A stretch of 64,000 nt of DNA, taken from NCBI RefSeq assembly GCF_944324505.1, contig NZ_CALUWO010000009.1, positions 1 through 64,000 on the forward strand, given 5' to 3'. A model generated the notes under the pieces. That model saw only the letters and a program-made list of their open reading frames with translations, had not been told where the DNA came from and searched no databases. The position numbers were made by a program, and so were the translations under genes. Shown here piece after piece: positions 16,298-21,179 of the stretch. How positions within the stretch are numbered: position 1 is the first letter of the stretch; every line of letters starts with the position of its first letter. The stretch comes from an uncultured Desulfovibrio sp. (GTDB taxonomy: Bacteria > Desulfobacterota > Desulfovibrionia > Desulfovibrionales > Desulfovibrionaceae).

Positions 16298-17323
16298 CTA
16301 TTTGCCGTAGATGAAGTCGTCCGGCACATCCGCCAGCGTGGCCACCATGACGGCCTTGATGGTGTGCATGCGGTTTTCCGCTTCCTGGAATACATAGCTG
16401 TTGGGGCCTTCGAAAACGTCGTCGCTCACTTCCATGTATTCCAGACCAAAGCGCTGGTAAATCTTTTCCCCAATGGTGGTCTGCCGGTTATGGAAGCTGG
16501 GCAGGCAGTGCAGCAGGCCGCAGCGGGGATTGTTGGTCTTGCGCATGACCTCGGCGTCAATGCTGTAGGGGGTCAGCAGATTGATGCGCTCCTGCCATAC
16601 CTCGTCCGGCTCTCCCATGGAGACCCAGACATCGGTATACAGAAAGTCGCAGCCGTCCACACCCTCATCCACGCTTTCCGTGCGGGTGATGCGGGCACCG
16701 GTCTTTTCGGCAATGGCGCAGGCCGTGGCAAAGATTTCGTCCGATGTCCAGAGCGGCCGGGGCGCCACAGACCGGAAGTCAAGCCCCAGCATGGCGCAGC
16801 AGATCATGAGGGAATTGCCCATGTTATAGCGGGCATCGCCCAGATAGGCCAGACGCTGTTCCTTCAGCGGCTTCTGGCTGCATTCGCGCATGGTCAGCAT
16901 ATCGGCCAGCATCTGCGTGGGATGCCATTCATTGGTCAGACCATTCCACACGGGCACGGAGGCATAGGCAGCCAGGGTTTCCACAATGTCCTGCCCGAAT
17001 CCGCGGTATTCTATGCCGTCATAAAAACCGGAGAGCACCCGGGCTGTATCGGCCATGGATTCCTTCTTGCCCATCTGGGAACCGCTGGGGCCAAGATAGG
17101 TTGTGGACGCGCCCTGATCATGTGCGCCCACCTCAAAGGAACAGCGGGTACGCGTGGAGTCCTTTTCAAACAGCAGCACAATATTCTTGCCTTCCAGAAA
17201 GCGGGGTTCCCGCTTTTCCTTCTTGGCCTTCTTCAGGGCCGCCGCCAGATCCAGCAGATACAGCAGGTCTTCGGCGGTAAAATCCGTTTCCTTCAAGAAA
17301 TGACGATTGGTCAGTCTGCTCAT
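16298..17323 (-). CDS. argF: Ornithine carbamoyltransferase
   Basis: Makes citrulline from ornithine and carbamoyl phosphate (arginine synthesis). 341 aa from ATG 17323. All catalytic motifs are intact: STRTR at residues 56-60 (carbamoyl phosphate), [14 protein letters not shown] and the Cys motif [29 protein letters not shown] is the usual N-terminus. It stands alone on the minus strand with its own terminator. Carbamoyl phosphate would come from carAB at 30044-34420. A motif-less relative is encoded at 52347-53231. Confidence 0.97.
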
Positions 17324-17534
17324 GCCCTCTTCACCCTTCAGCAAAGGCGGCCGCCGCCACACGTGCGCCCCATGCGCCCGGTACGGCAGCATAATCGGAA
17401 AGAGTTACAATAGCAGGGTCCGGGTACCTTGTCCATGAAATACGTTTGCCCCTCCCGGCACGCACGCGGGGAATCTCTTTTCTTGACATTGCTCCATCCC
17501 CTCTTTACCCCTAAAGAAAGCAAGGAGGAAGGCC

Positions 17535-18959
17535 ATGCTCAGGAATCTGCTACGGCACACGGCAAGGATACTGCTGTGCCTTTGTCTGCTGCCGCTGCTG
17601 CACCATGTTTCCCCTTGCTTTGGCGCCCCGGCCGATCCGCAGGCGCCCCGCCTGCTCAAGGTTGTGGCCCTGGCCGATCACGGCGTGCATGCCCCCGCCC
17701 TGTCCGCCGCCCTGCTCGGCACCTGGACCGAACGCCACTGGCCTGTCTGGCCGGTGGAACGTGGCGAACTGACCCCCCGTGGCGCCGCCCTCATCCGCGA
17801 CCTCTGGACCGTGCTGCGCAGTCACTACCAGCAGCTGGGACTGCTGCCGCAGCATACGTCGCCGGCAGCCATCTACGTCCGTACCGACAATACGCAACGC
17901 TGCCGGGGGACGGCCACCTCCCTGCTGGAAGCGCTGCTGCCCCAAAGCTCGGCCCTGAGCTATGCCATTGTGGACGCCATGCCGGATCCTCTCTTTCATC
18001 CCGTGCGCACCGGCCAGTGCGTTTTCAACATTGCCGAAACCGCCTCCGACGTGCTCCAGAACATGGATGACGGCCTTGCGGGCCTCAGCGATTCCCTGAG
18101 CGATCAAATGTCCCTGGTGGACTCACTGCTGGGGCCGGTGTCGCCTGAACTGTGCGCGCGCTTTGCCATGCCGGAAAACTGTCAGCTCTCCTCCATTCCC
18201 GCCATCATCAGCATTGCGGCACAGGGGACATCCGTGCGCATTCAGGGCGGACTGGGCATGGCATCCTCCATTGTGGAAAGTTTTCTCAATGAATACAGCC
18301 AGTGGCCCGGTGCGCTTGCTGCCTGGGGACAGGCCGATGCCCCTTCCCTGCGCAAGATGATGGTGCTGCATACGGAAGTCTTCAACGCCGTGCAGCGTAC
18401 CCCCTCGGTGGCTGCCGCCCAGGGCAGCGCCCTGCTGGGGGCCATGGTGGCTGCCCTTGACGGGCGGGAAACGGACAGCCGCGCCAACCGTGCCTCGCTG
18501 GTGGTCTTTGTGGGCACTCCGGCCAATATGGCCAATGTGGCCGCCCTGCTTAATATCCACTGGCAGGCATCGGGCTATGTGGCCAATGCCATTCCGCCCG
18601 GTACGGTGCTGGCCCTTGAACTGTGGGAACGTCAGGGCAGGCAGGAAATCCGTGCTGCGGTTTTTGCCCAGTCGCTGGAAAGCCTGCACAGCAGCCAGCT
18701 TACGGCCAATGCCCAGTCGCTGGTGCCCTTCACGGTGCGTGTGGGCGATGATGACGATGCCACCGTCAGCTCTGCCGTTTTCCATCAGCGGGTGAAGGAT
18801 GTGCTGCGGCACGACTGCATGCCCCGGGCCGGCAGGCTGCCCAGGATTGTGTCGGCGGGATCCGAAAAGACAGCCTTTACTGTTCCTCTCAGTGACAGCG
18901 AGGCCGAAGCGGAAGCCGGCGGCCCCACCCCGGACGACAGCATCCGTCCCACCCCGTAG
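17535..18959 (+). CDS. Exported AppA/Agp-like histidine acid phosphatase homologue, catalytically degenerate
   Basis: 474 aa, signal peptide about 1-31 (hydrophobic core LLCLCLLPLL), so periplasmic. The body follows the E. coli phytase AppA / glucose-1-phosphatase pattern: ELTPRGAALI, DPLFHPVRTGQC, an RTPSVA segment and IPPGTVLALELWER. The catalytic RHGxRxP is DHGVHAP (residues 48-54): the His nucleophile stays but both arginines are replaced. The proton-donor HD motif (GHDTN) is GTPAN (327-331), so H and D are T328 and P329. The later substrate arginine (QRCRGT) seems retained. Phosphatase activity is therefore doubtful; a binding role is more likely (inference). AAGGAGG precedes ATG 17535, and a TTGACA at 17483 may be its -35 box. 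Confidence 0.85.
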   Translation: MLRNLLRHTARILLCLCLLPLLHHVSPCFGAPADPQAPRLLKVVALADHGVHAPALSAALLGTWTERHWPVWPVERGELTPRGAALIRDLWTVLRSHYQQLGLLPQHTSPAAIYVRTDNTQRCRGTATSLLEALLPQSSALSYAIVDAMPDPLFHPVRTGQCVFNIAETASDVLQNMDDGLAGLSDSLSDQMSLVDSLLGPVSPELCARFAMPENCQLSSIPAIISIAAQGTSVRIQGGLGMASSIVESFLNEYSQWPGALAAWGQADAPSLRKMMVLHTEVFNAVQRTPSVAAAQGSALLGAMVAALDGRETDSRANRASLVVFVGTPANMANVAALLNIHWQASGYVANAIPPGTVLALELWERQGRQEIRAAVFAQSLESLHSSQLTANAQSLVPFTVRVGDDDDATVSSAVFHQRVKDVLRHDCMPRAGRLPRIVSAGSEKTAFTVPLSDSEAEAEAGGPTPDDSIRPTP

Positions 18960-19290: not shown

Positions 19291-20541
19291 CTAATCATCC
19301 AGTCTGTCCCGCGGCAGCAGCAGATTGAGCAGCACGCCGGTCACCGCCGCCAGGCCGATCCCGCCCAGCTTGAAGGAGCCAAAGTCAAACTGCATGCCGC
19401 CCACGCCAAAAATGATGATCAGGGCCACAATGACCATATTGCGCGGCCGCAGCAGATCATGCCCGGCCCGCACCAGCGTATTGAGGCCCACCACCATGAT
19501 GGCGCCGAACAACAGGATCATGATGCCGCCCATGACGGGGCCGGGGATGCAGCTCAGAAAGGCGCCCACCTTGGCCACAAAGGACAGCAAAATGGAGCAG
19601 ATGGCTGCCCAGGTCATGACGGCCGGATTGAAGGCCCGCGTCAGGGTGACGGCCCCCGTCACTTCGGAATAGGTGGTATTGGGCGGACCGCCCAGGGCGC
19701 AGGCGCACATGGTGGCCAGACCGTCCCCCAGCATGGTATTCTTGATGCCGGGATCCTTAAGAAAATCCTTGCCCGTCACGGAACTGATGGCGATGATGTC
19801 GCCAAAGTGCTCGATGGCCGGGGCCACGGTGATGGGAATGATGAAGAGCATGGGTTCCCAGGCAAACTGGGGCAGGGTGAATTCCGGCATGGCGATCCAG
19901 GGCACAGTATGCAGGGGGGTCCAGTCACATACGCCCAGCCCCATGCTCACCGCCAGCCCCACCACGATGCCGCAGAGAATGGGAATGAGCCGCAGCAGCC
20001 CCCTGCCCAGCAGGGATACCAGAATGGTGGCCAGCAGCGCGGACATGGAGATGATCAGCGCCGTGGAACGCGGCATGCTCTGCTCCTCCCCGTTGAGGCC
20101 CAGCGCCATCTTTACGGCCACCGGGGCCAGCACAAGGCCAATGACCATGATGACCGGCCCGGTGACAATGGGCGGCAGAATGCGCAGGATGATCTGTGTG
20201 CCCCGAAAGCGTATCAGTGTGCTCAGAGCCACATAGAGCAGGCCGGAGAAGATGAGCGCCCCCATGGTCGGCGCCAGGCCCCAGGTCTGGGTGCCGTACA
20301 TGATGGGAGCAATGAAGGCAAAGGACGAGGCCAGAAAGATGGGCACCTTGCCCCGGGTGCATATCTGAAAGACCAGCGTGCCCACACCGGCGGTGAAAAA
20401 GGCCACGTTGGTGCTCAGCCCCGTGAGCAGCGGCACGAGCACCAGCGCGCCGAAGGCCACAAAGAGCATCTGCGCCCCGAGCAGGGCATCCCGTGGATGA
20501 AAATGGTAGCGGCAGGGATCGGAAGAGTCGGTCTTGGCCAT
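19291..20541 (-). CDS. uraA: Uracil permease (UraA, NCS2 family)
   Basis: Inner-membrane uracil:H+ symporter, 416 aa, about 14 membrane segments. NCS2 signatures: LLGAQMLFVAFGALVLVPLL near the start; ITVAPAIEHFGDIIAIS with the substrate glutamate; LLGDGLATMCACALGGPPNTTYSE with the NTTY-type loop; then IPGPVMGGIMILLFG. It lies 11 nt downstream of upp in the same direction, so imported uracil is trapped as UMP by Upp. Confidence 0.95.
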   Translation of the reverse strand: MAKTDSSDPCRYHFHPRDALLGAQMLFVAFGALVLVPLLTGLSTNVAFFTAGVGTLVFQICTRGKVPIFLASSFAFIAPIMYGTQTWGLAPTMGALIFSGLLYVALSTLIRFRGTQIILRILPPIVTGPVIMVIGLVLAPVAVKMALGLNGEEQSMPRSTALIISMSALLATILVSLLGRGLLRLIPILCGIVVGLAVSMGLGVCDWTPLHTVPWIAMPEFTLPQFAWEPMLFIIPITVAPAIEHFGDIIAISSVTGKDFLKDPGIKNTMLGDGLATMCACALGGPPNTTYSEVTGAVTLTRAFNPAVMTWAAICSILLSFVAKVGAFLSCIPGPVMGGIMILLFGAIMVVGLNTLVRAGHDLLRPRNMVIVALIIIFGVGGMQFDFGSFKLGGIGLAAVTGVLLNLLLPRDRLDD

Positions 20542-20552
20542 GACAACCTCTG

Positions 20553-21179
20553 CTATTTGGTGCCGAAGATGCGGTCGCCCGCATCCCCAAGACCGGGAAT
20601 GATATAGCCGTTTTCATTCAGGTGGCTGTCAATGGCCGCCGTGAAGATGTCCACATCGGGATGCGCCTGCTGCACCCGGGCAATGCCTTCCGGCGCGCAG
20701 ACCAGGTTGAGGCTGCACATCTGGCGGCAGCCCCGCTTCTTGAGCAGGTCGATGGTGGCAATGAGCGAGCCGCCCGTTGCCAGCATGGGGTCAAGAATGA
20801 TGGCAAAGCGATGCTCCAGATTGCGGGCCGTCTTGACGTAGTATTCCACCGGCTCCAGGGTCTCCTCGTTGCGATACAGCCCCACCACGCTGATCTTGGC
20901 GCCCGGAATCATGTCCAGCACCCCGTCCATGAGGCCGAGACCGGCCCGCAGAATGGGCACCACCGTCACCTTCTTGCCGGAAATGACATCCACCTCCACC
21001 GGGCCGGCCCAGCCCTGCACCGTGCGCTTTTCCGTTTTGAAATGCTTGGTGGCCTCGTAGCTCAGCAGCCTGGCCAGTTCGTTGGCAATGGTGCGAAATT
21101 CGCGCGTACCTGTGGAGTCCATACGCAGAATCCCCAGCTTATGCCGCACCAGCGGATGATCAACCACATGGACAGCCAT
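20553..21179 (-). CDS. upp: Uracil phosphoribosyltransferase
   Basis: Pyrimidine salvage enzyme converting uracil and PRPP to UMP; 208 aa, the standard length. Motifs: [12 protein letters not shown] at the start, [35 protein letters not shown] (PRPP loop) and the uracil-binding end [18 protein letters not shown]. Minus-strand AAGGAGG precedes the ATG at 21179. It is first gene of upp-uraA, driven by the promoter at 21230-21258. Confidence 0.97.

Follow-up and report, generated by a model that had tools for sequence, protein, structure and literature searches.

A putatively exported AppA-type histidine acid phosphatase homologue of Desulfovibrio, probably maintained as a pseudophosphatase

The roles of the catalytic residues of the Escherichia coli phytase AppA have been summarised previously (PMC11836120); they comprise R16, the nucleophile H17 and R20 of the RHGxRxP motif, the third phosphate-site arginine R92, and H303 together with the proton donor D304 of the HD motif. 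MINPP and PPIP5K are among the enzymes in which the proton-donor aspartate is absent (PMC11836120). An amoebic member of the family is reported to have neither acid phosphatase nor phytase activity and to be a Mg-dependent pyrophosphatase; CF60 of Dictyostelium is a secreted branch-2 pseudophosphatase that acts in a protein complex and is described as having no acid phosphatase activity (PMC7926622). In the open literature, we found no paper that mentions Desulfovibrio along with both phytase and histidine acid phosphatase, nothing on D. piger and phytate that bears on an AppA-like protein, and no description of such pseudophosphatases in Desulfovibrio.

We analysed an AppA-like gene within a 64,000-nucleotide stretch of Desulfovibrio DNA (the window; Table 1). 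The reading frame is open and starts with an ATG preceded by AAGGAGGA, in agreement with the excellent ribosome site noted in an initial reading of the DNA by itself (the sequence-only reading). The N-terminus shows a basic start followed by a hydrophobic helix at residues 4–22, seen both on inspection and in an AlphaFold2 model, and we infer that the protein is exported from the cytoplasm. A Pfam search returned His_Phos_2 (PF00328) only (63 bits, E 4.4e-17, above the curated cut-off of 23.6), placing the protein in branch 2 of the histidine phosphatase superfamily as a homology family. The NCBIfam AppA model (NF007552) matched with E 4e-56 and 190 bits, below its equivalog cut-off of 585, and the Agp model (NF007553) with E 9e-22, likewise far under its own cut-off. 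Sequence matches in the PDB were AppA-type phytases, led by 4ARO (E 7.7e-47), and the confident AlphaFold2 model (pLDDT 83.5, pTM 0.82) has the AppA-like alpha/beta and helical-cap fold, its top PDB structures again being AppA-type phytases (TM to target 0.83–0.86); residues 432–474 are modelled with low confidence and are probably disordered. The AppA/Agp pattern that the sequence-only reading had traced over most of the protein is therefore borne out, with homology to AppA over nearly the full length. Profile searching of the window's own genome with His_Phos_2 found this gene alone. We considered and discarded the idea that the gene is an inactive paralogue accompanying an active copy, given the single PF00328 gene in this genome and one match per genome in the genus.

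Table 1. Features of the AppA-like locus in the window (positions in the 64,000-nucleotide stretch).
Feature	Position	Strand	Remark
argF-like carbamoyltransferase	16298..17392	-	divergent neighbour, marker of the orthologous locus
Putative promoter, TTGCTC-17-TAAAGA then AAGGAGGA	17489..17529	+	upstream block, by eye
Putatively exported AppA-type histidine acid phosphatase homologue without canonical active site (probable pseudophosphatase)	17535..18959	+	474 aa
DHGVHAP in place of RHGxRxP, residues 48-54	17676..17696	+	R16->D48, R20->H52; nucleophile His kept (H17=H49); alignments
R122 (AppA R92)	17898..17900	+	kept in the window, Pro in 5/6 sister proteins; alignments
Cys162	18018..18020	+	co-occurs with Cys428 across homologues (probable disulfide)
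TP in place of catalytic HD, residues 328-329	18516..18521	+	H303->T328, D304->P329; alignments
Cys428	18816..18818	+	probable partner of Cys162
Uracil/xanthine permease	19291..20541	-	convergent neighbour, same in six sister species
upp, uracil phosphoribosyltransferase	20553..21179	-	conserved neighbour

Most of the canonical active site is missing from the window protein. Three routes, namely direct alignment with E. coli K-12 AppA and Agp (both from NC_000913), alignment with 37 intact homologues, and phmmer alignments to Hafnia phytase, agreed in matching DHGVHAP to R16-H17-G-V-R20-A-P22 and TP to H303-D304, exactly as first proposed, and by none of them was an intact RHGxRxP or HD motif found elsewhere in the protein, the alternative placement that the sequence-only reading had named as evidence against itself. 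The nucleophile is kept, while two arginines, the proton donor and its neighbour are gone, also as stated there; R122 is an additional retained position. R288, the equivalent of AppA R267, is kept as well, and with these two arginines retained the phosphate site is not entirely stripped. All four of the lost residues are invariant in 37/37 intact homologues, so the loss of the motifs is more than chance.

The window protein is no lone oddity, and its dead relatives, which occur in a number of Desulfovibrio species, among them D. piger, common in the human gut, extend the picture beyond the initial reading. Homologues occur in 36/199 genomes of a family sample and in 62/348 genomes of the order, all of them in the same family among the matches listed. 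Within the genus, 38/79 genomes carry a homologue, of which 23 keep RHGxRxP...GHD and 15 do not (here termed dead); from other genera, 18/18 homologues read are intact. Apart from the window protein itself (DHGVHAP, GTPAN), the dead proteins fall into four groups. Six sister species, at 50–52% identity, read TR[SA]GVSAP or SSGLHAP with GSD or GDD, so that the nucleophile itself is replaced by Ser or Ala. Four D. piger-type genomes read RHGVAAP and GNDNN, and Desulfovibrio sp. OH1186_COT-070 reads HLGPHVP and GNDNH, with R92 lost. The last group, which is more divergent (L068, L069 and L070, from genomes G212, G244 and G219), reads IKEGVRAP or ASSGVRAP with GHD or GSE. Catalytic losses are thus common to the close relatives, as the sequence-only reading had suggested checking, but the substitutions differ from member to member. 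Relatives with named records include Candidatus Desulfovibrio intestinavium, Candidatus Desulfovibrio gallistercoris, uncultured Desulfovibrio MAGs, D. piger ATCC 29098 and Desulfovibrio sp. OH1186_COT-070; an alignment query found 13 such relatives and the window protein as sole query found 0. The protein of D. piger ATCC 29098 (L082, 5932–7293) represents an intermediate state, lacking R20 and H303 and keeping R16, H17, R92 and D304; its AlphaFold2 model is confident (pLDDT 85.8, pTM 0.86), and judged by these residues the D. piger-type proteins could be partly active. In a family member outside the genus (G047, contig C1, 531814–534675), a second homologue adjoins the first; it seems to be broken into two open frames and is possibly a decaying tandem copy.

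The dead genes occupy the locus of the intact ones. In all six sisters the gene lies within the block seen in the window: argF, the AppA-like gene, the permease, upp, mnmH, a D-serine dehydratase/alanine racemase-like gene and a DUF362 ferredoxin gene. argF also lies 0.3–3.6 kb from the AppA-like gene in five intact members of the genus (L059–L063) and in two dead ones, D. piger ATCC 29098 and OH1186; none was found near it in L064–L070, which include the divergent group. By eye, a TTGCCC-17-TATRCT block with TTT in the spacer, followed by a Shine-Dalgarno sequence and constituting a putative promoter, is common to the dead and most of the argF-linked intact orthologues, the −10 element of the window being weaker than its counterparts. 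Adjacency to argF and the similar upstream block mark the dead genes as orthologues of the intact ones. Ahead of argF itself, a sigma-70-like site (TGGACA, 17, TATTGT with TG) lies at 17407–17435 on the minus strand, and the facing stretch is similar in the sisters.

In a tree built with the catalytic columns omitted, the window protein and its six sisters form a clade (support 99/95), to which the four D. piger types can be added (98/89), giving 11 dead proteins. The OH1186_COT-070 homologue, on a long branch of its own, sits inside the intact clade, nested in branches with support from 95/96 to 100/97, and the placement of the divergent group is weakly supported. The minimum number of changes of state on the tree is two, and forcing all dead sequences into one clade was rejected (p-AU 0.022; p 0.054 with the divergent group omitted). 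Taken together, moderate evidence favours at least two losses of catalytic residues in the genus as the better reading.

These losses bear directly on whether the window protein could be an altered enzyme, one in which the retained H49 and R122 act with the newly acquired D48 and H52 in some remaining phosphoryl transfer, or in a different and perhaps metal-dependent hydrolysis. The retention of H49 and R122 in the window and of 4/6 catalytic residues in the D. piger types fits such a reading, as do the reported pyrophosphatase activity of the amoebic protein (PMC7926622) and the operation of MINPP and PPIP5K without a proton-donor Asp (PMC11836120). Yet the window protein is without R16, R20, H303 and D304, and the sisters are without the nucleophile. 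A metal site formed by D48, H49 and H52 was also considered and set aside, as these residues are not conserved among the sisters; together with the missing nucleophile, this means that the clade shares no catalytic or metal site. The six sisters cannot use the AppA mechanism, and a function common to the clade is therefore something other than AppA catalysis. We accordingly regard an altered enzyme as unlikely, although the window protein, having kept H49 and R122, may possess residual activity.

The sequence-only reading had also held that the gene is maintained rather than decaying, and had proposed dN/dS as a check. By the Nei-Gojobori method with the signal region omitted, dN/dS is 0.085–0.20 among five dead sisters and 0.096–0.17 among the D. 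piger types, compared to 0.095–0.28 in intact groups; purifying selection within these two dead groups matches that on the intact genes in strength. Codon likelihoods with omega free or fixed at 1 gave lnL values of -3941.7 versus -4225.8 for the five dead sisters, -6021.9 versus -6374.9 for seven dead sequences including the window and L033, and -2250.8 versus -2326.2 for the D. piger types, so that neutrality was rejected in all three dead sets. Pairs of the window with its sisters gave 0.36–0.42 at dS of about 1, values taken from one genome of the window's species over a longer, partly saturated path; constraint on the window's own branch looks looser and is less directly shown than for the clade. 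Maintenance is thus upheld for the clade and less directly for the window, and the combination of missing essential residues with purifying selection that characterises a pseudoenzyme is found in the clade and, indirectly, on the window's own branch.

What has been retained is the scaffold. We defined 64 conserved columns (at least 90% in 37 intact homologues), of which 47 are unchanged in all seven of the window and sister proteins. Among these seven, 6/6 catalytic columns differ in one or more of the proteins versus 11/58 of the others, a comparison (Fisher p 1.7e-4) that is partly circular because the group was chosen by its motifs; in the window alone, 4/6 catalytic and 9/58 other columns are changed (p 0.013). 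Two further cysteines, C207 and C216, do not vary across the genus alignment. C162 and C428 are both present in 21 sequences, both absent in 32 and discordant in two, one of which is at a contig end, with related sequences counted repeatedly; the pattern points to a probable C162–C428 disulfide. An acidic C-terminal tail was rejected as a defining feature, since it carries a net charge of -4 to -9 in the sisters but is weak, at -2, in the window protein, and the D. piger types lack it.

Given these results, it is highly unlikely that the gene is on its way out, its activity lost under relaxed selection and the frame persisting merely for lack of time. The absence of a homologue from 41/79 genus genomes, which makes the gene dispensable at genus level, the higher window-to-sister dN/dS and the weaker −10 element in the window all lean towards decay; against it, two dead groups are constrained as strongly as intact genes, every dead member has an open frame with no stops, and the loss is selective at catalytic columns with the scaffold retained. 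A lone decaying gene is ruled out for the clade by dN/dS and the codon likelihoods. Errors of assembly or annotation, or a misalignment masking intact motifs, might be suspected from the single genome of the window's species but are scarcely credible, as codons have been replaced through changes at more than one base while the frame stays open, comparable losses are seen in 14 other genomes, that of D. piger ATCC 29098 among them, and three alignment routes are concordant.

We therefore consider it likely that the window gene encodes an exported AppA-type pseudophosphatase, probably retained for a function outside the cytoplasm that requires no catalysis. An ancestor of this Desulfovibrio subclade would have lost R20 and H303, as all clade members are without both, and its descendants would then have altered other catalytic positions differently, with D48 and P329 arising in the window, while in the sisters position 49 became Ser or Ala and position 122 mostly Pro; this order of events is suggested by the shared and unshared losses. 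Through these changes the locus was preserved, as were the fold with its conserved cysteines and a large part of the upstream block, and the scaffold would bind a protein partner or ligand outside the cytoplasm. The losses across the clade make canonical phosphohistidine chemistry very unlikely, and judging from its residues the window protein would have no canonical phosphatase activity. Of the secreted pseudophosphatase binding phytate, sugar phosphate or protein that was originally envisaged, the exported and maintained pseudophosphatase holds up, through clade-wide losses that differ in substitution, purifying selection and a conserved locus; phytate and sugar phosphate as ligands gain no support, since phosphate-binding arginines are among the lost residues, though the window keeps R122.

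At least two losses of catalytic residues probably took place in the genus while the scaffold was preserved, so a second role may already have existed in the active orthologues. We tentatively suggest, with somewhat more doubt than conviction, that Desulfovibrio AppA-type proteins perform, outside the cytoplasm, a further function independent of catalysis, and that this function survived the loss of phosphatase activity in at least two lineages, D. piger of the human gut among them; were this true, the dead clade would isolate that function for study. An exported bacterial pseudophosphatase clade with intact orthologues at the same locus offers a natural comparison of what one protein does as an enzyme with what it does without catalysis. 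Furthermore, metagenome surveys should not rely on homology alone to score AppA-like genes from D. piger and related gut species as those of phytases or acid phosphatases.

Among known systems, the window protein resembles the E. coli periplasmic phytase/acid phosphatase AppA, with which it shares homology across almost the full length (28% identity), the same predicted fold, putative export and a conserved cysteine pair, but it replaces R16, R20, H303 and D304 and lies in a different gene neighbourhood. The E. coli glucose-1-phosphatase Agp, of the same superfamily branch and fold, is farther away (21% identity) and retains its RH, R and HD catalytic residues. Intact Desulfovibrio AppA-type orthologues (for example L003, L004 and L010) share 40–43% identity over the alignment, the argF-linked locus and a similar upstream block with the window, whereas they retain RHGVR[SA]P and GHDTN. 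CF60 of Dictyostelium, likened here by its description and as an analogy only, is likewise a secreted branch-2 homologue, but it is eukaryotic and has been studied functionally (PMC7926622).
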